DNA from: Melioribacteraceae bacterium | GTDB taxonomy: Bacteria > Bacteroidota > Ignavibacteria > Ignavibacteriales > Melioribacteraceae | Direction: 5' to 3' | NCBI GenBank assembly: GCA_016342755.1 | Contig: JAEINS010000007.1 | Coordinates: 124,001 to 188,000 of the forward strand | DNA: 64,000 nt | Shown: positions 28,620-42,126 of the stretch, piece by piece | How the letters are laid out: every line of letters starts with the position of its first letter | How positions within the stretch are numbered: the first letter of the stretch is position 1 | Notes under the pieces: generated by a model | Told to the model about the DNA's origin: nothing | What the model saw: only the letters and a program-made list of their open reading frames with translations | The model's database searches: none | Position numbers and translations under genes: made by a program

Positions 28620-29882
28620 TTATAAATTCCTATTATTTGGACGGGTATACACAACCTGAATTACACTAATATTTCTCATGTTAAAAGCTGCTTCACAATA
28701 ACTTAAGTAATAATTCCATTTTCTAACAAAATAATCATCAAAACCCAAAAGTTTAACATCTTCCAGTTTTTTATTGAATTTTTGTCTCCATAGATTCAAC
28801 GTTTTGCCATAATCTAATCCAAAATTTTTGATATCATGAATATGCATGTTGCTAGTTTCGTTAGCAGTTTTATTTAAGATTCCAATTGAAGGAAGTAATG
28901 AACCTGGGAAAATATGTTTCTGAATCCAATCTACACCTTTTCTCAATTCGTTATATCGTGAATCGTGTGATGTTATAACTTGCAACGACATTGCACCATC
29001 TTTTTTCAAAAGTTGATTACACTTAGCGAAAAAATCTTTATAATATTTATGTCCAACAGCTTCCAACATTTCTATTGAAACTATCTTATCAAATTGACCT
29101 TCCATTTTTCTGTAATCAATTAATTTGAATTCAACTCTTTTTTTCAATTTTGTTTTAGCCAATTTATCATTTGCATACTTAAATTGTTCTTCAGAAATAG
29201 TAATTGAAGTTACCTTACATTTGTAAAAGAAAGCTGCATAAAAAGCAAAACTTCCCCAGCCGCTACCAATTTCTAAAATGTGATCATCTTCTTTAAGTTT
29301 TAATTCTCTGCATATTCTATCATATTTTTCTATTTGTGCATCTCCAAGCGGAGTATCTTCTTCAGCAAAAATTCCACTGGAATATGTCATCGAATCATCT
29401 AAAAATAATTTGAAAAAATCATTGTTCAAATCATAATGTGCCGAAATATTTTTTTTGCTTCCTATTACAGAATTATGATTAAATTTATGAGTAATTGTGT
29501 TAAAAGTTTTTAACAAGCTTATCGGTGAAAATTTAACTTTAGAACCTGATATTGCCGGATTGCTTTCAATATTAAGTATCATCCAAGATATTACATTTGT
29601 AATATTGTTAGTTTCCCAGTCGCCATCAACATAAGATTCTCCAAATCCAACATCGCCAAACTTCACAACCTTTTTGAAAAAGCTATTATCTTTTATATTA
29701 ATATAGGCGTTAATGTCTTGATCTTTTTCACCAATATTAATTACATCACCTTCAGGCAAAGTAATTTGCAAGTAACCTTTTTGCATTTTTCTAAGTAACT
29801 CAATTACAACTTTTCTATAAAGTGAAATTTTCTTCTTTTTAGTTTTGCTTGCTGCGCTATTATTTATAGTTAACTCTTTCAT
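28620..29882 (-). CDS. cfa: Cyclopropane-fatty-acyl-phospholipid synthase family methyltransferase
   Basis: 420 residues, the full length of Cfa. It has an N-terminal lipid-binding domain (GDVGFGESYVDGDWETNN) and an SAM-dependent methyltransferase domain: HYDLNNDFFKLFLDDSMTYSSG, LEIGSGWGSFAFYAA (SAM-binding motif I) and VSIEMLEAVGHKYY. It transfers a methylene/methyl group from SAM to the double bond of membrane unsaturated fatty acids. Its ATG overlaps the DUF1365 stop (ATGA), indicating coupling. In this operon it may make a methylated precursor rather than a cyclopropane; that is inference. Confidence 0.9.
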   Translation of the reverse strand: MKELTINNSAASKTKKKKISLYRKVVIELLRKMQKGYLQITLPEGDVINIGEKDQDINAYINIKDNSFFKKVVKFGDVGFGESYVDGDWETNNITNVISWMILNIESNPAISGSKVKFSPISLLKTFNTITHKFNHNSVIGSKKNISAHYDLNNDFFKLFLDDSMTYSSGIFAEEDTPLGDAQIEKYDRICRELKLKEDDHILEIGSGWGSFAFYAAFFYKCKVTSITISEEQFKYANDKLAKTKLKKRVEFKLIDYRKMEGQFDKIVSIEMLEAVGHKYYKDFFAKCNQLLKKDGAMSLQVITSHDSRYNELRKGVDWIQKHIFPGSLLPSIGILNKTANETSNMHIHDIKNFGLDYGKTLNLWRQKFNKKLEDVKLLGFDDYFVRKWNYYLSYCEAAFNMRNISVIQVVYTRPNNRNL

Positions 29883-30652
29883 TTTATCACCATATCCTTT
29901 TGAATTTCTTGAAAATCATTTTTTCTAAACCATGGAATATTCTTTAAATACAATTTCATTGCGTGCCAATGAATACCCCAAATAATCTTAAAAGTTATAA
30001 ATGGAAATCTTAAGCTGTATTTAATAAGATTAAAATCTGTTAGCTTTTTTTGTTCTCCTTTAAGTGTAGATAAGAAAAATCTTTCTCCATTTTCGTAATC
30101 ATCTATTTTAATATTAAGTTTTTCATTTGGTACTGCCAGATTAAAATCAAAATGTGTATCTGATTTTATAAATGGAGATACGTAAAAAAACTTTTGTATT
30201 CGGGCTTTGAATGACTTTTTATTAAAAGTATGATTGCCTAAGAAAAAAAACTTCTGTTCGTTAAAAGTATTCCCAACTTCCGGAATTACACATACCGGAT
30301 TTGAATCTTTATCGAAGCAGTAATAAAAAGAAACCGGATTAAAATTATAACCTAAGAATGCCAAATTTGTTAACAGAAAAATTTTAGATATTTCTGTTTC
30401 AACTCCATTCTTTTTGGCATAGTCAATTATAGTTTGTTTTAAGTTTTTGTCTTCCGAGTTTAGATGATCTTTTTTGCGGAAACTATAAACACCAAACTTA
30501 TTATTATTTACTAACTTTAGTTTTTTGGTAATAGATTCAATTTCATCCAAATCCAGATAAAACATAAAAAACTTATAATTGAAACTATGTTTTTTAGGTT
30601 TCAATCTATTGTGCATTACTTTGCATTCATATATGTGAGATTTTTTGAACAT
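29879..30652 (-). CDS. DUF1365 family protein
   Basis: 257 residues. HIYECKVMHNRLKPKKHSFNYKFFMFYLDLDEI at the start (first 13 positions HIYECKVMHNRLK) and NLAFLGYNFNPVSFYYCFD are characteristic DUF1365 sequence. The family has no proven biochemical role but is almost always sandwiched between an FAD-dependent amine-oxidase-like protein and a Cfa-type enzyme, exactly as here. It overlaps the FAD oxidoreductase by 26 bp and the Cfa gene by 4 bp. Probably a cytoplasmic or membrane-associated partner in fatty acid modification. Confidence 0.88.
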   Translation of the reverse strand: MFKKSHIYECKVMHNRLKPKKHSFNYKFFMFYLDLDEIESITKKLKLVNNNKFGVYSFRKKDHLNSEDKNLKQTIIDYAKKNGVETEISKIFLLTNLAFLGYNFNPVSFYYCFDKDSNPVCVIPEVGNTFNEQKFFFLGNHTFNKKSFKARIQKFFYVSPFIKSDTHFDFNLAVPNEKLNIKIDDYENGERFFLSTLKGEQKKLTDFNLIKYSLRFPFITFKIIWGIHWHAMKLYLKNIPWFRKNDFQEIQKDMVIK

Positions 30653-31901
30653 CTTCTTCCAAAAGTTTTTTGCTTAAATCAATTGCCGAGCTTAATGCGT
30701 CTTCATGAAAACCATATCTAAAATAACTTCCGCAGAAGTAATAATTTCCCTGCTCATTAAGTTTTTGTAAATGTGATTGTGCGTTAATTGCATTTAGATC
30801 AAATAGAGGATGATCGTAATTAAATGACTTAATTATTTTTGCCGGATCAATTAAATAAGCTCCATTAACCGAGACAAAATAATCTTTGTTTTCTGAAACA
30901 CCCTGCAGACTATTCATATAATAAATGGTTGTCGTTTTAATATCTTCATTTTCTCCATCAATTCTATAGTTCCAAGAAGACCATGCTTTTTTTGTTTTTG
31001 GCATTACTGATGAATCTGTATGAAGATTCACTTCATTTTTTTCATACTTAAAATTAGAGAGCAACATTTTATCAAGTCCTGTCGGATCATCTAAAAGAGC
31101 CAGAGCTTCATCGGCATGGCAAGCAAATATTACTTTATCAAATGTAGATTTAGAATTATTAGAATCAATAACATCTATTTTACTACCATTTTGACCAACT
31201 TTTATTGCTCCATTATTAGTAGTAATTTTATCCTTAAAACTTTCTATAATTTTATCCCGATAAGATTTACTCCCATTCACAACAGTTTTCCATTGATGTT
31301 GCGTATCTAATCCTAAAAATCCATGATTATGAAAAAATCTTATCAAAGTTTTTGCTGGAAAATCTAGCATTTTATTTGGAGGAGTTGACCAAACAGCGGA
31401 ACTCATTGGTATTAAATATTTGTTTAAAAATTCATTTCCAAACTTTTTTGCTTCAACATATTCTCTTATAGAATAATCATAATATCTTTTATCACTAAAT
31501 ACTTCCATACATTCTTTGTTGAATCTATTTATTTGTAGAAGCATTTTCCAGTATTTAGGCGAAAATAAATTTTTACGCTGAGAAAAAAGCCCGTCTAATC
31601 CTGAACCGGAAAATTCTAAATCAGAAACTTTATGCTGAACGCTAAATGACATATCTGTATTTTTAGTTTCTACATTTAATTCCTTAAAAAGATTTGTCAA
31701 GTTTGGATAAGTAACTTCATTATAAACCATAAATCCGGTATCAATATTTACTTCTTCTCCATCCTCATCAATAGTAACGGTATTAGTGTGCCCACCTACA
31801 TAATTATTTTTTTCATAGATAGTCAGTTCATATTTATCCTTTAAATAATATGCGCTCGCCATTCCTGCAATACCTGTTCCTATAATTGCTAACTTTTCCA
31901 T
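30627..31901 (-). CDS. FAD-dependent amine-oxidase-like oxidoreductase
   Basis: 424 residues. It opens with the dinucleotide-binding motif AIIGTGIAGMASAYYL, then YEKNNYVGGHTNTV (NADP/FAD family GG doublet), and VIFACHADEALALLDDP. It closes with YYFCGSYFRYGFHEDALSSA, the C-terminal FAD-contact block. This is the protein that usually accompanies DUF1365 and Cfa. Relatives in proteobacterial light- or singlet-oxygen-induced clusters are implicated in fatty acid desaturation or furan fatty acid formation. RBS GAGGAAAAA before ATG 31901. Confidence 0.88.
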   Translation of the reverse strand: MEKLAIIGTGIAGMASAYYLKDKYELTIYEKNNYVGGHTNTVTIDEDGEEVNIDTGFMVYNEVTYPNLTNLFKELNVETKNTDMSFSVQHKVSDLEFSGSGLDGLFSQRKNLFSPKYWKMLLQINRFNKECMEVFSDKRYYDYSIREYVEAKKFGNEFLNKYLIPMSSAVWSTPPNKMLDFPAKTLIRFFHNHGFLGLDTQHQWKTVVNGSKSYRDKIIESFKDKITTNNGAIKVGQNGSKIDVIDSNNSKSTFDKVIFACHADEALALLDDPTGLDKMLLSNFKYEKNEVNLHTDSSVMPKTKKAWSSWNYRIDGENEDIKTTTIYYMNSLQGVSENKDYFVSVNGAYLIDPAKIIKSFNYDHPLFDLNAINAQSHLQKLNEQGNYYFCGSYFRYGFHEDALSSAIDLSKKLLEEDVQKISHI

Positions 31902-31912
31902 TTTTTCCTCAA

Positions 31913-32620
31913 TTAAAAATCTATTTTTACAAAATGACTTTTACCTAGTTCATTATTAATATTGGAAATACCTTCATATTTAATAATCGTTTTAGTCTTT
32001 TTGTCGTAAGTGATAAATATTGAACTTACAAATTGTCTTAAAAACCAGCTGTTTAATTCTAATTCAAGCGTAACCGCATCTTTATCATTTAATACCAATT
32101 CTTCATATTTTGATACACGAAATTTGTAATAATCTAATTTAGCAGGAGCTACAAAATAGAATGATATTATTTCATCATTTAAAATTTCTTCCCAATTTTC
32201 TCTGAAGAAAAATGTTAATCCTCCATCAATTACAAATGTTTCATCAATTTGTAGCGTGTCTTCTGAAATTGGTTCATCAAAAGTTGAACGTGTAAAAACT
32301 CTAATTTTGTTATCTGATAAGAGTTCTGATCCTTCTAAATAACCATCTCTAGAATCTTTTAATACAAAATCTGGTTTTGTAGAATCAGCATTAAAAAACA
32401 TTTCTTTAGTTGTAAAAACAATTTCATTTGTGTCTTTATAAGAGATAACACTTTTAACTAATTTGCTTCCGTTATAAGTTTCAGCATGATTTTCTGTATA
32501 AATAAATTTATCTGAATCTAAATCGTAAGCTGTACTTCTATATTTATTAATAGGAGTCTGGTTACTTTCAGATACAAATCCTACAAATAAAAACGATATT
32601 AAAAGAATTATGATTTTCAT
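31913..32620 (-). CDS. Secreted protein of unknown function
   Basis: 235 residues. A signal peptide (about 1-18) is followed by a beta-rich body (YTENHAETYNGSKLVKSVISY, FKFRVSKYEELVLNDKDAVTLELE). It resembles small periplasmic DUF3108/DUF6134-like proteins, though I cannot assign it firmly. It lies between the first Cfa-like methyltransferase (2 bases) and the FAD oxidoreductase (11 bases) in the light-operon candidate, so a role in envelope lipid handling is plausible. Confidence 0.6.
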   Translation of the reverse strand: MKIIILLISFLFVGFVSESNQTPINKYRSTAYDLDSDKFIYTENHAETYNGSKLVKSVISYKDTNEIVFTTKEMFFNADSTKPDFVLKDSRDGYLEGSELLSDNKIRVFTRSTFDEPISEDTLQIDETFVIDGGLTFFFRENWEEILNDEIISFYFVAPAKLDYYKFRVSKYEELVLNDKDAVTLELELNSWFLRQFVSSIFITYDKKTKTIIKYEGISNINNELGKSHFVKIDF

Positions 32621-32622
32621 GA

Positions 32623-33648
32623 TTAAACCTTTCTAAATAAGTAGTGACTCACAAACCATTCTTTGCCATTTTTAAAGCCCCAAAGTTCTGCGCATGACAT
32701 AAAAAATATTCTCCAATAAGCCCACCACATATTTACATTTTGTTTTCCGTAAGTTTCTTCAAATAATGGAACAATGCTTTTTTTGTTTTTATCCATGTTA
32801 GACAACCAGGCTTCTGATGTTTTTTGATAATGTGTTCCATTAACAATCCAGTGATTTGCTACTTCAAACTTTTTTGCAAAATAGAGAAGCAGATTATCAC
32901 TTGGCATAATTCCGCCTGTAAAAAAGTATTTAGACATCCAGTCGGTTTCATCTTTTACTTCGAACAGATAAGCATATTTCTTGTGTGAAAAAATGTGAAC
33001 AAAAAGTTCACCATTATCTTTTAACCAATTTGAAATATTGTTAAACAATGTTTCATAATTTCTCATATGCTCAAACATTTCAACTGATACAACTCTATCA
33101 AATTTTCTGTCTGTTGAAAAATCATTTATATCAGCAGTTATAATTTCTACGTTTTCTAATTTTAGTTTTTTAGCTTCATCCAAAATATGTTCTCTTTGTG
33201 TTGCTGAATTTGAAAGAGCTGTTATTTTTGCATTTGGAAAATTTTTAGCCATATATAATGTTAAAGATCCCCAACCACATCCAAGTTCAAGAACAGATTC
33301 TCCATCCTTTATATTTGCTCTTTTACAAGTTAATTCAAGCATTTTGTCTTCAGCTTCGTCTAAAGTTTTTGTTGATTTATCCCAATAACCGCAGCTATAT
33401 TTAAGATTTTTTCCAAGTGCGTATTGATAAAATTGCGTAGGTACTTCATAATGCTGTTCATTTGCATCAGCTGTATTTACAGCAATAGGACTTTTTTTTA
33501 GAGTATTTATTAACTCCATAAACTTTGTCTTTTCCTCTTCAACAGATCCTGAATGTTCTGAATTCAATCTCTGTTTTAAGAGTCGTTTTATTCCAAATCT
33601 TATTAATGAATCTGGAAGTAAGTTTTGTTTTAATAAATTATCTATCAT
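32623..33648 (-). CDS. Cfa-like SAM-dependent methyltransferase (short form)
   Basis: 341 residues, lacking the N-terminal lipid-binding domain of full Cfa. HYEVPTQFYQYALGKNLKYS, VLELGCGWGSLTLYMA (SAM motif I) and RVVSVEMFEHMRNYETLF are conserved, and the C-terminus has MWWAYWRIFFMSCAELWGF. This is the branch that includes coclaurine N-methyltransferase-like and UfaM-like enzymes. Its place directly after a desaturase suggests that it methylates an unsaturated acyl chain. There are two Cfa-family genes in one operon, this and 28620-29882. Confidence 0.85.
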   Translation of the reverse strand: MIDNLLKQNLLPDSLIRFGIKRLLKQRLNSEHSGSVEEEKTKFMELINTLKKSPIAVNTADANEQHYEVPTQFYQYALGKNLKYSCGYWDKSTKTLDEAEDKMLELTCKRANIKDGESVLELGCGWGSLTLYMAKNFPNAKITALSNSATQREHILDEAKKLKLENVEIITADINDFSTDRKFDRVVSVEMFEHMRNYETLFNNISNWLKDNGELFVHIFSHKKYAYLFEVKDETDWMSKYFFTGGIMPSDNLLLYFAKKFEVANHWIVNGTHYQKTSEAWLSNMDKNKKSIVPLFEETYGKQNVNMWWAYWRIFFMSCAELWGFKNGKEWFVSHYLFRKV

Positions 33649-33686: not shown

Positions 33687-34433
33687 TTACTGTATAGTTT
33701 TAATTTTGTTTGGCATTTGTATTACACCAATCCAATTAAGAAAAAGTATTATTGGATATGCCGGATCAATTTCAAACTTTCTAATAGCAAAGTTTACTTT
33801 TGATGGATGTTTATGATGATTATTTTGAAATAATTCTCCAAGCGTTAAGAAATCGAAGAAAAGAGTGTTTTTTGAATTATCTCTAGTATCACGAAAATTC
33901 ACATAACCATATTTATGACCAGCCCAGTTTACTATTGCGCCATGTATTGGTCCCATTAGAAAATGAATTGGAAGTAATAAAAACATCCACCAACTTGTTG
34001 CAAATATTGCATATAAAGCTGTGTAAATAGCTCCCCAAATAATTCTGGAGTGCCATTTATCGGCAAACTTATCAAACTTTTCCCATTGTGGAACATTCTT
34101 CTGAAATTTTTCGCCAGGCTTAATTTTATTGTTTATCAGATCCAAATAGATATCTTTTGTTTTCCACATTAAACCAAACACGCTTTTAAAAAAATGTGGT
34201 GAGTGCGGATCTCTTTCTGTATCACTAAATGCATGATGCATTCTATGCATAATTGCATAAGCTCTCGGATTTAAGAAAGAAGAGCCTTGTGAAACGTAGG
34301 TTAACATATAAAATGTTTTTTCCCAAAAAGGTGTCATCTTAAACATTCTGTGCGAACAATATCTATGTAAAAAGAATGTTTGAAAGAATAATGATATAAA
34401 CCAGTGCGATAAAAATATTATTAAGATTCCCAT
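33687..34433 (-). CDS. Membrane fatty acid desaturase (delta-9 type)
   Basis: 248 residues with three histidine boxes: H23-RYCSH28, H63-RMHH67 (followed by AFSDTERDPHSP) and NHHKHP near 205-210. Several hydrophobic segments fit a diiron membrane acyl-lipid/acyl-CoA desaturase. It is slightly shorter than average, since the N-terminus begins right before the first box. It introduces a double bond in a membrane fatty acid, using O2. It starts one base after the sigma factor stop codon, so the two are cotranscribed; the products feed the Cfa-type enzymes downstream. Confidence 0.9.
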   Translation of the reverse strand: MGILIIFLSHWFISLFFQTFFLHRYCSHRMFKMTPFWEKTFYMLTYVSQGSSFLNPRAYAIMHRMHHAFSDTERDPHSPHFFKSVFGLMWKTKDIYLDLINNKIKPGEKFQKNVPQWEKFDKFADKWHSRIIWGAIYTALYAIFATSWWMFLLLPIHFLMGPIHGAIVNWAGHKYGYVNFRDTRDNSKNTLFFDFLTLGELFQNNHHKHPSKVNFAIRKFEIDPAYPIILFLNWIGVIQMPNKIKTIQ

Positions 34434-34434
34434 T

Positions 34435-35025
34435 TTATGAAGCCTTTAAATATCCATTGTTTTTTGCGTAATCAAATAATTTATTTTGTAAAAGATTTCT
34501 TGCTCTATTTAATCTTGAACGAACTGTTCCTAACGGGATGTTGATTTTTTCAGATATTTCTTCATAAGTAAAACCCTCAATATCTCTTAGAACAATTATT
34601 TCTTTAAAGCGATGTGGAAGAGAAATTATAGCAGTCGAAATATCATCATCAAATATCGCAGAAATTTTTTTATTGTCAAGTTTATAAACTGATTCGGCTA
34701 CAGGTTTTTCTTCTAGATAATGTTCAACTTTTTCTAATTCAATAATCTGTGGTTCTCTATTTTTCTTCCTAATATTATTAATAAAAGTGTTGTGCAATAT
34801 GCTAAATAACCATGATTTACAATTTGTTCCTATTTCAAATGAATCGAAAAACCTATAAGCTCTTAATAATGTTTCTTGAACTAAATCCTGAGAATCATCC
34901 ATGTTTTTAGTAATCTTAAAAGCAAAATTGTAAATTGCTTTCAAATGAGGCGATACTTCGTTTTCGAAGTTTCTGTATTTAATATTGTCTTTTATTAACG
35001 ATGAGTGATATATTAAAGCTTCCAA
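34435..35025 (-). CDS. ECF-family RNA polymerase sigma factor
   Basis: 196 residues. Region 2 (FAFKITKNMDDSQDLVQETLLRAYR-type, containing AEDLVQ-like SQDLVQETLL) and region 4 (IIVLRDIEGFTYEEISEKIN followed by PLGTVRSRLNRARNLL) are clear. The start is TTG at 35025, preceded at 6 bases by GGAG; an upstream ATG in another frame hits a stop at once. No anti-sigma gene is adjacent. It is the first gene of the leftward operon and sits divergent from the B12 photoreceptor, the arrangement of LitR/CarH-controlled sigma factors. Confidence 0.9.
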   Translation of the reverse strand: MEALIYHSSLIKDNIKYRNFENEVSPHLKAIYNFAFKITKNMDDSQDLVQETLLRAYRFFDSFEIGTNCKSWLFSILHNTFINNIRKKNREPQIIELEKVEHYLEEKPVAESVYKLDNKKISAIFDDDISTAIISLPHRFKEIIVLRDIEGFTYEEISEKINIPLGTVRSRLNRARNLLQNKLFDYAKNNGYLKAS

Positions 35026-35052
35026 TTAGTTCTCCATTGTAAAGTTATAATC

Positions 35053-35074
35053 TGTATAACAAATGTATAAGAAA
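35053..35074. promoter_or_regulatory. Candidate CarH/LitR operator: two abutting 11-bp direct repeats
   Basis: TGTATAACAAA (35053-35063) and TGTATAAGAAA (35064-35074) differ at one base and sit head to tail at exactly one helical turn. They overlap the spacer and -10 of the leftward ECF-type promoter, where a dark-state repressor would block it. CarH tetramers are known to contact 11-bp direct repeats. Confidence 0.5.
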
Positions 35075-35082
35075 AAAGTTCC
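35054..35082 (-). promoter_or_regulatory. Leftward ECF-type promoter for the sigma-desaturase-Cfa operon
   Basis: On the minus strand GGAAC (35082-35078) is followed, after 17 bases, by GTTATAC (35060-35054). GGAAC at -35 is the common hallmark of ECF promoters. The predicted start is near 35047, giving a leader of about 20 bases before the TTG start at 35025. Confidence 0.5.
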
Positions 35083-35090
35083 ACAAGCAA

Positions 35091-35120
35091 GGAACAAAGT
35101 CAGCTTTTTTTTTGTTCTAA
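35091..35120 (+). promoter_or_regulatory. Rightward ECF-type promoter for the photoreceptor-photolyase operon
   Basis: GGAAC at 35091-35095 and GTTCTAA at 35114-35120, separated by 18 bases. With the leftward element it forms GTTCC-N8-GGAAC, so two -35 boxes lie back to back. The leader to the regulator ATG at 35202 would be about 75 bases. Confidence 0.45.
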
Positions 35121-35201
35121 GTGTAAAGTGAGGAAAAACGATTAAAATCGGAAGAAAAATAAAAATTAAATGTAAACAAAAACTAGACAAGAAGTCAACA
35201 A

Positions 35202-36155
35202 ATGAATAGTTCAAGAAATTACAATATGAAGATAGTTGTTAATAAAACAGGTTTAAGTCCATTTTTATTAAGAGCATGGGAAACCAGATACAAAGCTGTT
35301 ATTCCATCCAGAACCGAATCTAATAGAAGAATGTATTCTGAAAGTGACATTCAGAAACTTTCTATTTTAAGGAAGTTAACCGATTTGGGTTTTAGTATTG
35401 GAGGTATAGCAAATTTAGAAATAGATGAATTACATGATCTTTTATATAATTCTGATAAAAAGGAAGATAAAAGAGATGAAAATATTGAAGAGAAAAAAGT
35501 TGGTTTATCAAAAGAAATAGATTTTCTAGAAGAATGTCTTAAAGCAAGTAAAGAGCTAAATTCTAAAAAATTAGAAACTTTATTAATGAGAGCATTAGTT
35601 GAATTTCCTCAGAGAAGGATAATTGATGAAATTATTGTTCCATTAATGATACAAATTGGTAATAAATGGAGTAACGGTTCGTTAAGAGTTGTAAATGAAC
35701 ATTTGGCGGCAAGCGTAGTAAAGAAATTTTTAACAAATATGATTGATGGATATGGCATTCAGCATAATGCACCTTCAATGATTGTTTCAACTCAGAGTGG
35801 TCAATATCATGAAATAGGTGCTTTAATTGGAGCGGCAGCAGCGGCAGCAGAAGGTTGGAATGTTACATATTTTGGCTCAAGTCTGCCGGCTGAAGAAATT
35901 GTTATGGGAGTAGAAAAGTTAAAGTCTCAAGTTGTATTTTTGAGTGTAATATACCCTTATGATGATCCTAATTTGAAAGAAGAAATTAGAAAACTTGGAA
36001 TTATGTTAAATAAAGATGTTTCAATTTTGGTAAGCGGTCAGGGATTATACGGCTATAAAAGAGCTTTTGATGAAATTGGAGCAATAACAATTACTACACA
36101 TGATCAGTTCAGAGATGTGTTAGAGACAATCAGAAAAAATTCAAAAAGCAGATAA
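35202..36155 (+). CDS. MerR-family B12-dependent photoreceptor regulator, CarH/LitR type
   Basis: 317 residues. A MerR-type DNA-binding domain (about 6-75; TGLSPFLLRAWETRYKAV) is joined by a charged linker to a B12-binding module. The helical bundle carries W156-x9-E166-H167, the motif that caps the adenosyl side of cobalamin in CarH. The Rossmann part has QYHEIG with His203 as the predicted lower cobalt ligand (Gln replaces the usual Glu/Asp two residues before). In the dark such proteins bind adenosylcobalamin, tetramerise and repress; light breaks the Co-C bond and releases DNA. It leads the rightward operon and faces the ECF sigma gene. Confidence 0.88.
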   Translation: MNSSRNYNMKIVVNKTGLSPFLLRAWETRYKAVIPSRTESNRRMYSESDIQKLSILRKLTDLGFSIGGIANLEIDELHDLLYNSDKKEDKRDENIEEKKVGLSKEIDFLEECLKASKELNSKKLETLLMRALVEFPQRRIIDEIIVPLMIQIGNKWSNGSLRVVNEHLAASVVKKFLTNMIDGYGIQHNAPSMIVSTQSGQYHEIGALIGAAAAAAEGWNVTYFGSSLPAEEIVMGVEKLKSQVVFLSVIYPYDDPNLKEEIRKLGIMLNKDVSILVSGQGLYGYKRAFDEIGAITITTHDQFRDVLETIRKNSKSR

Positions 36156-36164
36156 GAGTTTAAA

Positions 36165-36947
36165 ATGAGTGAAATAATAAGTATATCGGCATTAACAATT
36201 TTAATATATGTAACATTGTTTTATATAGTGGCACAAATAAAAACTGATAATTCAATAATTGATATAGGCTGGGGAATTGGTTTTATCTTAGTAACATCTG
36301 TTCTCTTCTTTTTAGCAGATTCAATTACCAATATTCAGTTGCTGTTTATTTTAATGATATTAGTCTGGGGAGTAAGATTATCATTTCATATCTTAAAAAG
36401 AAGTATTGGTAAACCGGAAGATTTTAGATATCAAGAGTTTAGACGAAACTGGGGAGATAAATATTTAATAAAAGCTTATTACAAAGTTTTTCTTCTTCAG
36501 GGCGGATTTATGTTGTTCATTTCGGCACCAATCTATGTAGTGTTTAATTCAACAGTAACAGAATTTAACATCCTAAATTTATTGGGAATTGTAATTTTTA
36601 TAATAGGATTTTTAACTGAATCAATTGCAGATTTACAGCTTAATAAGTTTAAAAAAGATGAAAGTAATAAAGGAAAAATAATTACAACGGGTTTATGGAA
36701 ATATTCTAGACATCCAAATTATTTTGGAGAAGCTCTTTTGTGGTGGGGAATTTTTATTTATGTAGTTTCATTCGATTATGGTATTGCTGCGGCAATAAGT
36801 CCAATATTTCTTAATTATTTATTAGTTTATATAAGCGGTGTTCCTATGTTAGAAAAAAAATATGAGGGTAGAGAAGATTGGGAAACATATAAATCGAAAA
36901 CTTCTAAATTTATTCCATGGTTTTCAAGATTAAAAGGTACAAAATGA
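36165..36947 (+). CDS. DUF1295 membrane protein (steroid 5-alpha-reductase-like)
   Basis: 260 residues with six to seven hydrophobic segments. IDIGWGIGFILV near 30, GKPEDFRYQEFRRNWGD and the C-terminal TTGLWKYSRHPNYFGEALLWWG are the DUF1295 signature, shared with isoprenylcysteine methyltransferase and 5-alpha-reductase folds. It probably reduces or modifies a lipid in the membrane. It starts 9 bases after the photoreceptor stop and overlaps the SRPBCC gene by 4 bp (ATGA). Confidence 0.88.
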   Translation: MSEIISISALTILIYVTLFYIVAQIKTDNSIIDIGWGIGFILVTSVLFFLADSITNIQLLFILMILVWGVRLSFHILKRSIGKPEDFRYQEFRRNWGDKYLIKAYYKVFLLQGGFMLFISAPIYVVFNSTVTEFNILNLLGIVIFIIGFLTESIADLQLNKFKKDESNKGKIITTGLWKYSRHPNYFGEALLWWGIFIYVVSFDYGIAAAISPIFLNYLLVYISGVPMLEKKYEGREDWETYKSKTSKFIPWFSRLKGTK

Positions 36948-37402
36948 AAGTACACAAATTAAATTATGAAACCCTTATTGAAACAAATATAGAAAAGTGT
37001 TGGGATTTTTTCTCGAATCCAAATAATTTACAAAAAATAACACCACCCGAAATGAAATTAAAGCCGATTGAAGAAATTAAAAGTAAAACTTATGAAGGAC
37101 AGATTGTAACATATAAGGTTTATATATTCGGTTTTATTCCGTTTACATGGGTTACGGAAATTTCTTCTTTAGAGAACAAAAAATATTTTGTAGATGAACA
37201 AAGATTTGGTCCTTATAAATTTTGGCATCACATGCATGAATTTATTGAAGCTGAAAATGGCGTTAAAATGATAGATACAATCAACTATATTTTGCCTTTC
37301 GGAATTTTAGGAAACTTGGTGAATAAGCTATTAGTTTCTAATCAGCTTAAAGAAATTTTTAGTTTTAGAGAAAAGAAACTAAAAGAAATAAATTGGTCTT
37401 AA
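36944..37402 (+). CDS. SRPBCC (START-like) family protein
   Basis: 152 residues from ATG 36944, which overlaps the DUF1295 stop; an ATG at 36917 is in frame but would give a 31-bp overlap. ETLIETNIEKCWDFFSNPNNL is the N-terminal strand-helix of the START-like fold, and HHMHEFIEAENGVKMIDTINY is typical of proteins annotated as SRPBCC or cell division inhibitor-like. Such proteins bind a hydrophobic ligand in a deep cavity. It may carry the lipid product of the cluster; that is inference. Confidence 0.8.
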   Translation: MKVHKLNYETLIETNIEKCWDFFSNPNNLQKITPPEMKLKPIEEIKSKTYEGQIVTYKVYIFGFIPFTWVTEISSLENKKYFVDEQRFGPYKFWHHMHEFIEAENGVKMIDTINYILPFGILGNLVNKLLVSNQLKEIFSFREKKLKEINWS

Positions 37403-37403
37403 A

Positions 37404-38753
37404 ATGGAAGTTGATAAAAAAAGAGTAAACGAAATAAAAAGTGGTGCAATTAAAACTGGACCAATACTTTACTGGATGCAAAGAGATCAGCGTGTTGATG
37501 ATAATTGGGCTTTACTTTTTGCACAGGAAAAGGCAATTGAAAAAAATGAAAAGCTGATTATTGTCTTTAATCTTGTTAACGAGTTTTTAGATGCAACTGA
37601 AAGACAATTTTATTTTATGTTCGAAGGATTAAAAGAAGTTGAAAAAGATTTAGAAAAACTTAATATAAAATTTGAACTATTAATAGGAGATTGTTCTAAA
37701 ACAGTTCCAAAATTTATTGAAGATAACGATGTTTCAATTTTAATAACAGACTTTAATCCTTTGAGATTAACAAAAATTTGGAAGAAAAAAGTCGCTGATT
37801 TAATAAAGATTCCTTTTTATGAAGTTGATACACATAATATTGTTCCAATTTGGCAGGCATCTAATAAACTTGAATATGCGGCTTATACAATAAGACCAAA
37901 AATTACTAAACAGCTTGATAAATTTTTAACAGAAATTCGTAATGTTAAAAAGTTTTCTGGTGAGAAAGTTCAAAATGTAACCGATTGGAATAAAGTTTTT
38001 TTAGACTTAAAGATTAATAGAAATGTTAAACCTGTAAAAAATTTTGTTGGCGGATCTGATAATGCGATAAGTGTTTTAAACGAATTTGTTAATAAAAAAC
38101 TTAAACATTATTCAGAACTACGAAATAACCCGACACTAAATTATATCTCAAATATTTCGCCTTATCTTCATTTTGGACAAATTTCTTCACAAAGAGTTGC
38201 ACTTGTTGTGCAGCAATTTATTGAGTATGATGAATCGATAAAATCATTTCTTGAAGAATTAATTGTTAGAAAAGAATTAGCTGATAATTATTGTTTTAAT
38301 AATAATAGTTACGATAGTTTTGAAGGTTTTCATGATTGGGCAAAAAAAAGTCTGAAGGAACATAGAAATGATGAAAGGGAATTTATCTATAAATTGAATG
38401 ATTTTGAATCTATGAATACTCATGATCCGTTGTGGAATGCAGCGCAATATGAAGTATATTCAACTGGTAAAATGCATGGTTTTATGAGGATGTATTGGGC
38501 AAAAAAAATATTAGAGTGGAGTGAATCTCCTGAAGAAGCGCAAAAAACCGCTATTTATTTAAATGATAAATATCAGCTTGATGGAAGAGATCCGAATGGA
38601 TATGCGGGAATTGCTTGGTCCATAGGCGGTGTACACGACAGAGCCTGGGGCGAAAGAGCAGTTTTTGGAAAAATTAGATTCATGAATTTTAATGGATGTA
38701 AAAGAAAATTTGATGTAAATAATTATATTAAACTTTACACAGTAAATAATTGA
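37404..38753 (+). CDS. phr: Class II CPD deoxyribodipyrimidine photolyase
   Basis: 449 residues. Class II features are visible: YWMQRDQRVDDNWALL at the start, TDFNPLR, VDTHNIVPIWQASNKLEYAA, and the FAD-binding C-terminus with SNISPYLHFGQISSQR, ELIVRKELADNY and GRDPNGYAGIAWSIGGVHDR. It uses blue/UV-A light and FADH- to split cyclobutane pyrimidine dimers. It starts one base after the SRPBCC stop, so it is part of the photoreceptor-led operon, which fits light induction. Confidence 0.93.
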   Translation: MEVDKKRVNEIKSGAIKTGPILYWMQRDQRVDDNWALLFAQEKAIEKNEKLIIVFNLVNEFLDATERQFYFMFEGLKEVEKDLEKLNIKFELLIGDCSKTVPKFIEDNDVSILITDFNPLRLTKIWKKKVADLIKIPFYEVDTHNIVPIWQASNKLEYAAYTIRPKITKQLDKFLTEIRNVKKFSGEKVQNVTDWNKVFLDLKINRNVKPVKNFVGGSDNAISVLNEFVNKKLKHYSELRNNPTLNYISNISPYLHFGQISSQRVALVVQQFIEYDESIKSFLEELIVRKELADNYCFNNNSYDSFEGFHDWAKKSLKEHRNDEREFIYKLNDFESMNTHDPLWNAAQYEVYSTGKMHGFMRMYWAKKILEWSESPEEAQKTAIYLNDKYQLDGRDPNGYAGIAWSIGGVHDRAWGERAVFGKIRFMNFNGCKRKFDVNNYIKLYTVNN

Positions 38754-38760
38754 GGTTAAA

Positions 38761-39291
38761 ATGAAAAGTTTTGTAATAATATGTTTTGTAATAATATGTT
38801 TTGTAGTTTTTATTGGCTGTTCATCAACAAATTATCCTCCTCTCGAAGTAGTTGACGAAGTAGATATAGAAAGATATATTGGAAAATGGTATGAAATTGC
38901 GCGCTTGCCTAACAGGTTTCAGGAAGACTGTTATAGAGCAACGGCTGAATACGATATAATAAATTCCGAAACTATTTCGGTTATAAATAGCTGCATGGAA
39001 GAGAGTATAGATGGCGAAATTGAAATGGCAGAAGGAAAGGCTTTTGTTGTGGAAGGTACAAACAATGCAAAACTTAAAGTCCAGTTTTTCTGGCCATTTA
39101 AAGGCGACTATTGGATTATTGATTTGGATAAAGAAAACTATACTTATGCGGTAGTTGGTTCACCAAGCCGCAAATATTTTTGGATTCTTGCACGAACTAC
39201 TAAGTTAAATGATCAGGTTTACAAAGAGATCATTCAACGGGCGGAAAATAAAGGTTTTAACTTAAGTACACTTATAGTTGAAGATTATTAA
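38761..39291 (+). CDS. blc: Outer-membrane lipocalin (Blc-like lipoprotein)
   Basis: 176 residues. A lipobox (IGCS, Cys20) gives a lipid anchor. The lipocalin signature [19 protein letters not shown] follows, then [23 protein letters not shown] and the C-terminal [11 protein letters not shown]. Bacterial Blc proteins bind fatty acids or lysophospholipids at the outer membrane, suiting a lipid remodelling cluster. Last gene of the rightward operon, 7 bases after photolyase. Its stop codon overlaps the convergent regulator gene. A 15-bp tandem duplication sits in its signal peptide. Confidence 0.92.
38769..38798 (+). repeat. 15-bp tandem duplication in the lipocalin signal peptide
   Basis: TTTTGTAATAATATG occurs twice in a row (38769-38783 and 38784-38798), encoding [10 protein letters not shown] within the hydrophobic signal. 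It keeps the frame and lengthens the hydrophobic core by five residues. Confidence 0.85.
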
Positions 39292-40651
39292 TCCTTAAAA
39301 ATAATATTGTGCTTAGAAACAATTCTGTGAATTGATCTTCTGTCAAGATCACAGTTTTGAGCCGTCTTGGAAATATTACCATTATTTTTCTTTAGATGAT
39401 GTGTCAGATATTCAATTTCAAATTGTTCCAGAATTTTTTCCTTTGCGTCTTTATATTGGAGATCTACAATTTCTGAATCGAGCTTAAATTTCTTTTGAAT
39501 TTTCTGTAACGGAATATCATCAGTATCCACAATATTTCCCTGAGAAAGATAATACGCCCGGTTTATAATATTCTGCAGCTCTCTTATATTTCCCGGCCAC
39601 TGATAATCTACTAATATATCCTGGGCGTCATTGGAAAGCACTTTTTCGTGGTTACTGTTTTTGCAACAAATTTCTTTCATAAAATGTTTGGCTAAGAAAA
39701 TAATATCTTCTTTTCTGTCTCTTAGCGGCGGAAGTGTAATTGTAAAAGTATTTAATCTGTAAAGAAGATCTTCCCTAAACATCCCGTTCATAACAGCTTC
39801 ATCAATATTTTTATTTGTGGCCGCAATTACACGAACGTCAATTTCTATTTCCTTATGTCCGCCAATTCTTCTTATCTTCTTTTCTTCCAGCATTCTAAGA
39901 ATTTTAACCTGGGTTGCGGCAGACATATCGCCAATTTCATCGAAGAAAAATGTGCCCTGATTGGCAAACTCCAGAAGTCCGGGTTTAGACTGCGAAGCTC
40001 CCGTGAAAGCTCCTTTTTCATGTCCAAATAATTCACTCTCAAAAAGATTTTCGGGCAAAGCACCGCAATTAACTGGTACAAACGGATTTGTTTTTCCTTT
40101 GCTTAAATTATGTATTGCTCTGGCTATAAGCTCCTTACCTGTCCCGCTTTCGCCTAATACAAGAACGTTTATATCGCTGTGGGCAATTTTTTAACAAGAT
40201 CAATAATGCCTTTCATAGAATCACTTTTGTAAATAATTCCCTGAAGTGCTTCCTCGTTAAGAGCGGATTCTTTTTCGTCCTTATTAAAACTCTGGCTAAA
40301 TGCTTTCTCAATTGTATCAAAAAGTTTTCTGGAAGTGAACGGCTTTTCAATAAAATCGAAAGCTCCTTCTTTAATGGCCTCTACACTGGCTTCAATAGTT
40401 CCATAGCCAGATATAACAATGCCTAAAGTATTTGGGAACTTTTTAAATGCATTATGTAAAACATCTAATCCGGTATAACTTCCCATTTTCAAATCGGTAA
40501 TTATCATATCAAATTTATTAGAGCCAACAAGATTAATTGCCTCTTTGGGATTATTAATAGCTCTGATTTTATATTCAGGTTTATGATTAAAGAGTTTTTT
40601 AAGACTATTTAACATTTCTTGTTCATCATCAACTAATAAAATCTCTTTCAT
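39288..40651 (-). pseudogene. NtrC-family sigma-54 response regulator, single-base frameshift at an A6 run
   Basis: With one A restored at 40187-40192 the gene encodes about 454 residues: receiver (Asp53 in MIITDLKMG), AAA+ domain with Walker [15 protein letters not shown] loop (sigma-54 contact), [11 protein letters not shown], and a Fis-type helix-turn-helix ([20 protein letters not shown]). As read, the receiver frame (40651 to 40169) stops after VKKLPTAI. The AAA+ frame continues to 39288, with its first good Met in [12 protein letters not shown] at 40058. The break falls just before Walker A, where the family has VKKIA-type sequence. It overlaps the histidine kinase gene by 4 bp (ATGA). 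Sequencing error, true loss or phase variation are all possible. Confidence 0.85.
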
Positions 40652-42126
40652 TCAGTTTCCTTATTCCGAAAAGTTATTGTAAATGTTGTACCTTTACCAA
40701 TTTCACTTTCTAATTCAATTTTTGCTTTATGATTTTTGCAAATATTTTTAACAATGTACAATCCAAGTCCTGTTCCTTTTCCTTCAGATTTTGTGGTATA
40801 AAAAGGCGCAAAAATGTTTTTCTGTGACTTATGGTCAATACCGTTTCCAGTATCAGAAATAACCAAAATAACAGTATCAGAATCTTCATTTCTGATGGTT
40901 ATATTTATTTCGCCATCAAAACCAATGGCATCGGCAGCATTGTTTATAAGGTTTGTTATTATCTGTTCAATCTGAGCCGAATCGCCCCAGATAGAATTAT
41001 TATTTCCTTTAATATTTTTAGTTATCGAGATATTTTTTTTGCTAAGAATTGGTTCCAGCATTTGAATACTCTGCTCAACTATATTTGTTAAATCTATATT
41101 ACTAAATTCCTTGTTTATTTTTTTACTGTGTCTAAGAATGTTTTTAGTAATTTTAGTAATTTTTTCTACATAACCCTCTATAACTTCCAGGTCATTTTTA
41201 TAATTTTCAAGATGAATATTATTTTCTGCTTCAAGTCTTAAATAATCAGTTCGTGAAAGCATAATTGCAGAATAGTTATTTATTTCGTGTGCAATGCTCG
41301 AAGTTAATTCACCTATTGTAGCTAATTTATCAGCATGCTGAAGTTGTTTAAAATGGAGTTCCTCAATTTCTTCTCTCGAAGTTTTTATCTCTTCAACCAT
41401 TCTGTTAAAATGCCTGTTCAAATGTCCAAACTCATCGTCTTTTTCAATTTTTAATCTTGTGTCAAGATTTCCATGCACAACTTTATCAAGAGCATTCATA
41501 AAATTGTTTAAGGGAATATTTATAAAGTGACTGAAGGAATAATAGAATCCGGTTACTAAAAGCAATATCATTATTATTGATAAAAATACCAGGCTGTTTA
41601 TGCCGCTTATAAAGTACTTTTCAGTCTCAGTAATATGTGTATCAATGTCTAAGTAGGCAATGGCATTTTGTTCCTCATGGCAACTTTGACAGTCGGGTTT
41701 ATTTATTATTGGCTGAAAAGCTGTATATGCGTGAAGATCGGAAGTAAGAGATACATTTCTAACTCCAAAATCGATAAAACTAGAATCAACATGATCAGGA
41801 GCAACCTTAAAGATATTTTTTCCGTTTTCTTCTTTAACTGATGAATAAACAATTTTACCATCTTTTCTGAATAATCTTACATGATAAATATTATCATTTA
41901 ATGAAATATCGTTAATAGTTTTTTCCAGATCGTGCGCGGAGCCCAGCATCATTGCGTTATCAACTCCAAACTCTAAAATATCCATGGAGGTATTTAGAAG
42001 AATTTCTGACCGCTCTTCAAAATTTCTGGCAAATTGAGTTAATAAAAAGAACGTGGGTATACCGGCACTAAATATTATAAATAGAACTGAATAAAATACG
42101 AATTTGCTTTTAGTTGTTTTTAACAT
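40648..42126 (-). CDS. Sensor histidine kinase with periplasmic CxxCH haem motif
   Basis: 492 residues. Membrane helix at about 9-30; a periplasmic domain ending in PDCQSCHEEQNAIAYLDI with Cys146, Cys149 and His150 as a c-type haem attachment site; second helix at about 174-197; HAMP; HisKA with His280 (IGELTSSIAHEINNYSAIML); HATPase_c (ITNLINNAADAIG, DTGNGI, GTGLGLYIV). This is a redox- or gas-sensing kinase in the style of periplasmic haem sensors. It is cotranscribed with its sigma-54 regulator (overlap) and follows the multihaem NapC-type gene by 21 bases. Confidence 0.9.
   Translation of the reverse strand: MLKTTKSKFVFYSVLFIIFSAGIPTFFLLTQFARNFEERSEILLNTSMDILEFGVDNAMMLGSAHDLEKTINDISLNDNIYHVRLFRKDGKIVYSSVKEENGKNIFKVAPDHVDSSFIDFGVRNVSLTSDLHAYTAFQPIINKPDCQSCHEEQNAIAYLDIDTHITETEKYFISGINSLVFLSIIMILLLVTGFYYSFSHFINIPLNNFMNALDKVVHGNLDTRLKIEKDDEFGHLNRHFNRMVEEIKTSREEIEELHFKQLQHADKLATIGELTSSIAHEINNYSAIMLSRTDYLRLEAENNIHLENYKNDLEVIEGYVEKITKITKNILRHSKKINKEFSNIDLTNIVEQSIQMLEPILSKKNISITKNIKGNNNSIWGDSAQIEQIITNLINNAADAIGFDGEINITIRNEDSDTVILVISDTGNGIDHKSQKNIFAPFYTTKSEGKGTGLGLYIVKNICKNHKAKIELESEIGKGTTFTITFRNKETE

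Follow-up and report, generated by a model that had tools for sequence, protein, structure and literature searches.

CarH operators of Thermus, Bacillus megaterium and myxobacteria are described as tandem 11-bp TnnACA repeats lying over promoter boxes, beside or near the regulator gene (PMC9304148, PMC8156234). The repeat unit is given as nnnnTnnACAn in PMC9304148 and more fully as nAnnTnnACAn in PMC8156234; three repeats are reported for Thermus, four for B. megaterium, and one or two perfect units for myxobacterial operators (PMC9304148). The locus analyzed here lies in a 64-kb window (the whole stretch of DNA under study) from a bacterium of the Melioribacteraceae, class Ignavibacteria, and shares with these systems both the repeats over promoter boxes and the neighboring regulator gene. 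Units in which TTGACA serves as the -35 element, as in the CarH operators of the same two sources, are found at related loci as well. However, no more than two perfect units make up the leftward array of the present locus, operator 1, which overlaps a promoter of the GGAAC/GTT type in front of an ECF sigma factor gene, whereas the operators of these sources serve carotenoid genes.

Other described systems resemble parts of the arrangement. The sites of the CarH/LitR-family proteins LitR, PplR and PmlR of Pseudomonas read T(G/A)TACA, which the TATACA of operator 1 fits, and these proteins repress light-induced genes, as is proposed here; class II LitR, however, is described as lacking a full B12-binding domain and answering to a LOV protein (PMC9758184), whereas the regulator encoded at 35202 has both B12-binding domains. 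The SigH/SigE promoters of Corynebacterium, GGAAC-N17-18-GTT, have the same boxes and spacing (PMC10012870), but here a CarH-type array covers the spacer and the -10, and recognition by the local sigma factor is putative. The photo-oxidative RpoE/RpoE2-ChrR regulons of Vibrio and Shewanella likewise combine ECF sigma, photolyase and cyclopropane-synthase genes, with a MerR-like protein taking part in Vibrio; their promoters are of the TGATC type and their sigma factor is held by ChrR (PMC5241685, PMC4336711), in contrast to the GGAAC/GTT boxes and predicted CarH-like repressor of the window.

No mention of CarH together with "Ignavibacteri" was found in the literature searched, most subscription journals lying outside it. 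The operator type is known, and we have not seen its placement over an ECF-type sigma/lipid promoter in Ignavibacteria matched in that literature. The repeats are very probably the landing site of a B12-based, probably light-sensing repressor over a stress-type promoter.

Repeat arrays between the sigma factor and regulator genes

The original prediction concerned two abutting 11-bp direct repeats, TGTATAACAAA (35053-35063) and TGTATAAGAAA (35064-35074), in the 176-bp intergenic region (27% GC) between the sigma factor gene and carH. Their positions proved exact, and they match at 10 of 11 positions; nowhere else in the window do two abutting 11-mers agree at 10 or more positions. Shuffling the intergenic sequence 20,000 times gave such a pair in 1.2% of cases, and repetition by itself is modest, even weak, evidence; the operator reading draws its weight from the base motif and conservation. 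The argument had been made from the 11-bp geometry alone; the base motif agrees as well, but in a functional register that lies on the minus strand. Tandem nnnnTnnACAn repeats are present on both strands, two units on the minus and three on the plus:

35052-35073, minus strand: operator 1 (predicted), two 11-bp CarH-type units, TTCTTATACAT at 35073-35063 and TTGTTATACAG at 35062-35052, shifted by one base from the repeats at 35053-35074
35169-35201, plus strand: operator 2 (predicted), three tandem 11-bp units, AATGTAAACAA, AAACTAGACAA and GAAGTCAACAA
35202-36155, plus strand: CarH-like regulator (carH) of 317 aa with MerR, B12-binding_2 and B12-binding domains, assigned by Pfam and motifs

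Read on the minus strand, operator 1 consists of TTCT-TATACA-T followed by TTGT-TATACA-G, two in-register units whose hexamers stand at 35069-35064 and 35058-35053 (TATACA-n5-TATACA). Both units are perfect, and the next in-register positions mismatch TnnACA. The leftward pair is real, but the original inventory overlooked the stronger array in front of carH. The units of operator 2 are AATG-TAAACA-A, AAAC-TAGACA-A and GAAG-TCAACA-A, with hexamers starting at 35173, 35184 and 35195 (span 35173-35200), and the last unit runs up to 35201, immediately ahead of the carH ATG (35202). The A at position 2 of the fuller consensus is found in all three units of operator 2 and in neither unit of operator 1.

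The arrays are rare. Operator 2 is the single occurrence of a perfect TnnACA triplet in the 4.73-Mb genome (reversed control, 0), and the composite core TANACANNNGTTATACA has a single match, at 35069-35053 (reversed control, 0). Looser patterns match more than once: GGAAC-N4-10 followed by the pair has four genome matches (control, 0) and GGAAC-N16-19-GTTATAC has three (control, 1). When the intergenic region was shuffled 20,000 times, a TnnACA pair appeared in 1.6% of the shuffles, a triplet at a frequency of 5e-5, and a triplet together with a second array in none.

To follow the arrays in relatives, the regulator was searched against the order at E<=1e-20, which gave a match in 28 of 164 genomes, the window's own included, and stretches were taken around 29 carH homologues besides that of the window. 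One locus with 59 bp upstream (L047) was left out of the 28-locus counts and included among the 29 loci of the composite count given below, and the partial match G082:C238 was left out of the locus counts. Conservation in orthologous regions, set beforehand as the test that could overturn the prediction, was found: within 320 bp upstream of carH there are 47 TnnACA pairs at spacing 11, distributed over 23 of the 28 loci and 17 of 18 genera of the same order. Spacings 6-10 and 12-21 yielded 0-3 pairs, and the rise at 22 and 33 (10 and 9 pairs) reflects that these are multiples of 11. The spacing-11 pairs numbered 0.79 on average and 7 at most in 300 shuffles, and three were found in 66 kb of control coding and downstream DNA.

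The perfect pair was absent from the 320 bp upstream in five of the 28 relatives (L045, L049, L050, L052 and L058). One of these, from G070 (L013 / L058), is also the only one of the 28 tallied homologues without the recognition-helix motif RxWExRY, and the joint absence of helix motif and repeat pair would fit, as an anecdote. In five relatives (L040, L041, L043, L056 and L059), the pair nearest to carH has the orientation opposite to that of the window's plus-strand triplet: it lies on the minus strand, 14-36 bp upstream of the start of the carH match. Of three loci from outside the order, two (L151 and L152) carry a pair no more than ~75 bp ahead of the carH match, and the third, L153, lacks one. 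A phylum-wide search at E<=1e-25 matched 14 of 392 genomes, mostly those already found in the order. Among the best 80 of 530 desaturase relatives, a pair lies within 350 bp upstream in 4/4 loci with a linked carH and in 2/76 without one, the four not being independent because their contigs were already counted among the carH relatives.

Proposed promoter elements beneath the predicted operator 1 and their recurrence

The promoter-like boxes of the region are the following:

35078-35082, minus strand: proposed -35, GGAAC, of a leftward ECF-type promoter; GGAAC-N17-19-GTT is enriched upstream of the relatives' carH
35054-35060, minus strand: proposed -10, GTTATAC, of the same promoter, 17 bases from GGAAC and inside operator 1
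35091-35119, plus strand: GGAAC-N18-GTT(CTA), upstream of operator 2, a possible ECF-type promoter reading rightward into carH

The pattern of a SigH-type ECF promoter (GGAAC/T, a spacer of 17-19 and GTT) was found on both strands, from 35082 on the minus (N17) and from 35091 on the plus (N18), an arrangement that occurred in 0.01% of intergenic shuffles. Upstream of carH in the relatives, 21 GGAAC-N-GTT matches with spacers of 17-19 are spread over 19 of the 28 loci, and no other spacer between 8 and 30 gives more than one match, whereas the counts are flat in 294 kb of control DNA (5-13 per spacer). On the plus strand, GGAAC-N17-19-GTT is present in nine of the 28 relatives.

A composite layout was found in the window and at 11 of the 29 relatives' loci (n = 12 sites, selected by requiring GAAC 7-11 bases ahead of a hexamer pair): GGAAC or TGAAC, 8-10 bases, TA[TG]ACA, three bases, GT and TATACA, with one-base variants in L055 and L067. 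GGAAC/TGAAC is part of the selection rule; GTTATAC is largely kept (10 of 12 sites). The GT ahead of the second hexamer lies outside both the selection rule and the CarH unit and is invariant (12/12), so GTTATAC is likely the -10 of a GGAAC-N17-19-GTT promoter, of the SigH/SigE class of ECF promoters. The repeats had been placed between the -35 and the -10; this holds for one repeat, which occupies the spacer, but the proposed -10 itself falls inside the other.

These data bear on two other explanations. One holds that no regulator binds and that the repeats are only a -10 element plus a copy that arose by chance in AT-rich DNA. The low GC content and the shuffle frequencies of pairs and abutting 11-mers agree with this, but the conservation of spacing 11 in relatives, the triplet on the other strand and the spacer hexamer in 12/12 composite sites (the hexamer pair being part of the selection rule) make it hardly credible. 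The other takes the regulator for an activator of the MerR type, remodeling the spacer of the leftward promoter, as its MerR-family DNA-binding domain and the position of the site over promoter boxes could suggest. However, the direct repeats of CarH are contrasted with MerR palindromes in PMC8156234, a spacer of 17 is ordinary for GGAAC/GTT promoters, and the -10 itself is covered, and we regard activation as improbable. A repressor that binds the repeats is the reading followed below.

TAnnTTTG is a housekeeping promoter box of the phylum. The leftward promoter could also be read as a housekeeping one, in which TACATTTG fits TAnnTTTG; this was set aside because TTTG is missing from the other composite sites, and GTTATAC is retained at most of them. 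The relatives do have a second promoter type, in which one repeat also supplies TTGACA and TAnnTTTG follows downstream; of eight matches to this pattern, seven, spread over five loci, have a partner repeat. In the genome of the window, the only match to this pattern (control, 0) lies at G000:C21:40501-40531 (L188:1501-1531), ~120 bp ahead of a large secreted-type open reading frame, and joins a TTGACA-type pair to a TAnnTTTG-like box.

The CarH-like regulator and the light-state ligand

The MerR_1, B12-binding_2 and B12-binding domains of the regulator all exceed the Pfam cut-offs, the last one narrowly (32.9 vs 32.1 bits), and the protein matches the CarH structure 5c8d at E 3.5e-20. The CarH equivalog model NF052513 of NCBIfam was its best match, but the score of 101.9 bits falls well short of the cut-off, 400, and the protein is therefore called CarH-like, a CarH relative and not an equivalog. 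The gene at 35202 is the only full-length member in the genome, three other matches being partial, and the genome encodes one cobalamin adenosyltransferase (PF01923, 6.1e-60). With the conserved motifs and the conservation of the repeats, a CarH relative encoded next door and TnnACA in both repeats support the original reading of a CarH operator.

The recognition helix, RAWETRY at residue 24, fits RxWExRY, with T where RxWERRY has R. The Wx9EH motif is present at residues 156-167 (W156 to E166-H167), as is the axial His203. The B12 motif D/ExHx2G/P-x41-SxT/V-x22-27-GG is loose: His203, Gly206 and Ser248 are in place, while Q201 stands for D/E, SVI for SxT/V and GQ for GG. The residue after the Trp, which in Thermus CarH is the light-state ligand His132, is Ser157. 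A His follows the Trp in five of the 28 tallied homologues, the window's included (L011, L019, L020, L022 and L025), and none of these five belongs to a composite-promoter locus. At the 12 composite loci, this residue is never His; L032, a composite locus outside the tally, has Gln. A carH homologue of G044 (L017 / L066) shows neither Wx9EH nor HxxG by motif search and has arrays upstream at -83 and -33; it is possibly a B12-independent, CarA-like form.

Given Ser157 in place of His132, light release is the main doubt of the mechanism. According to PMC9304148, many but not all myxobacterial CarH proteins carry the His132 equivalent. The regulator might instead sense the supply of AdoCbl (or a redox state) at the repeats, because illumination would release DNA poorly without the ligand switch of His132. 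The serine and the absence of His at all composite loci would fit such a sensor, as would one study in which Thermus H132A was mostly tetrameric in light, although the same source mentions an earlier report that the full-length H132A does disassemble in light (PMC10442372). The retention of Wx9EH, called crucial for photoreceptor activity in PMC9304148, and the photolyase within the same gene run also argue against it. We consider this alternative rather unlikely, if serious, and retain light as the probable signal.

Flanking genes and proposed control

The divergent genes on either side of the arrays are, from left to right:

28620-29882, minus strand: cyclopropane-synthase-like methyltransferase
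29879-30652, minus strand: protein with no family match in the searches made
30627-31901, minus strand: FAD oxidoreductase-like protein
31913-32620, minus strand: protein with no family match in the searches made
32623-33648, minus strand: second cyclopropane-synthase-like methyltransferase
33687-34433, minus strand: fatty acid desaturase (PF00487 exceeds its cut-off)
34435-35025, minus strand: ECF sigma factor gene with a TTG start as listed, first behind operator 1 (Sigma70_r2 and r4 exceed the Pfam cut-offs)
36165-36947, plus strand: DUF1295 protein
36917-37402, plus strand: 161-aa protein with no Pfam match
37404-38753, plus strand: photolyase (TIGR00591 exceeds its cut-off)
38761-39291, plus strand: lipocalin

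The sigma factor gene lies between operator 1 and the desaturase, presumed from gene spacing to be in the sigma operon, and the leftward run continues with five genes (28620-33648). On the carH side, four genes follow (36165-39291), among them those for the photolyase and lipocalin. Beyond them on the minus strand, at 39288-40651, a receiver-domain open reading frame and an AAA/HTH one, beside a sensor kinase (40648-42126), look by eye like one interrupted response regulator gene.

The nearest NCBIfam model of the sigma factor is TIGR02947 (SigH), at 146.9 bits under a cut-off of 251.55. Among 30 loci of its relatives, eight contain a carH sequence, and an array lies upstream of sigma in four of these eight vs one of the 22 without carH. 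Close sigma relatives (E 5.8e-48 or better) were found in 11/11 composite-promoter genomes, a correlation that says little because they are also in 10/13 others; this comparison covered 24 of the 28 carH-bearing genomes (G004, G079, G153 and G154 left out).

Much the same predicted layout is seen again in related bacteria, most of them uncultured, with different first genes to the left of the operator. This gene is an ECF sigma factor in L042, L044 and L046, and the desaturase of a lipid run in L040, L041, L043, L055 and L056. In L060 (G002) and L061 (G001), it is a divergent folE (GTP cyclohydrolase I) behind a TTGACA-containing array, and the folE of L061 exceeds its NCBIfam cut-off. Other first proteins were read by eye as DUF4397- (L039, L053 and L057), fasciclin- (L048 and L051) and TonB-type (L062-L065).

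Two adjacent squalene/phytoene-synthase-family genes are on another contig of the genome. Such adjacent pairs are known from squalene/hopanoid synthesis, and no claim of carotenoid control is made for this genome for that reason. The lipid genes have a candidate role in furan-fatty-acid synthesis (UfaM, UfaD and UfaO; PMC7380195), which is only a lead.

Taken as a whole, it is probable that the CarH-like regulator acts at the two predicted operators, with AdoCbl-dependent repression of the sigma/lipid and carH-photolyase operons in the dark and release by light or loss of AdoCbl. The sequence itself shows both arrays, how rare they are in the genome, their overlap with promoter-like boxes, their conservation and the regulator's domains. 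For binding, oligomer state, dependence on AdoCbl and light, promoter use, operon extent and sigma autoregulation, we infer the following course. In the dark, the AdoCbl-bound regulator would oligomerise and place its DNA-binding domains side by side on the 11-bp direct repeats. Occupancy of operator 1 would cover the spacer and -10 of the GGAAC-N17-GTTATAC promoter, so that RNA polymerase would be blocked and the sigma factor and lipid genes kept off. Occupancy of operator 2, downstream of the likely second promoter, would limit the carH and photolyase operon by autorepression. Light or AdoCbl loss would dismantle the complex, and both operons would rise; if the ECF sigma factor reads its own promoter, the response would be self-amplifying.

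A further reading, tentative but possible, is that Ignavibacteria have a two-lock element, in which a CarH operator is placed over the -10 of a stress-sigma ECF promoter, so that the sigma and lipid-protection genes would be expressed only with the sigma factor active and the B12 repressor released, with a repressor that does without the His132 switch and would work by other photochemistry or as a sensor of B12 supply.

If the proposed control is true, B12-based gene control reaches a little-studied group, where it would act on ECF sigma, lipid-modifying and photolyase genes (and folE in relatives) instead of carotenoid genes, and B12 control and an ECF promoter would be merged into one compact element. 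With the composite-promoter loci lacking His132, the debated contribution of this residue to light release could also be tested in natural proteins.
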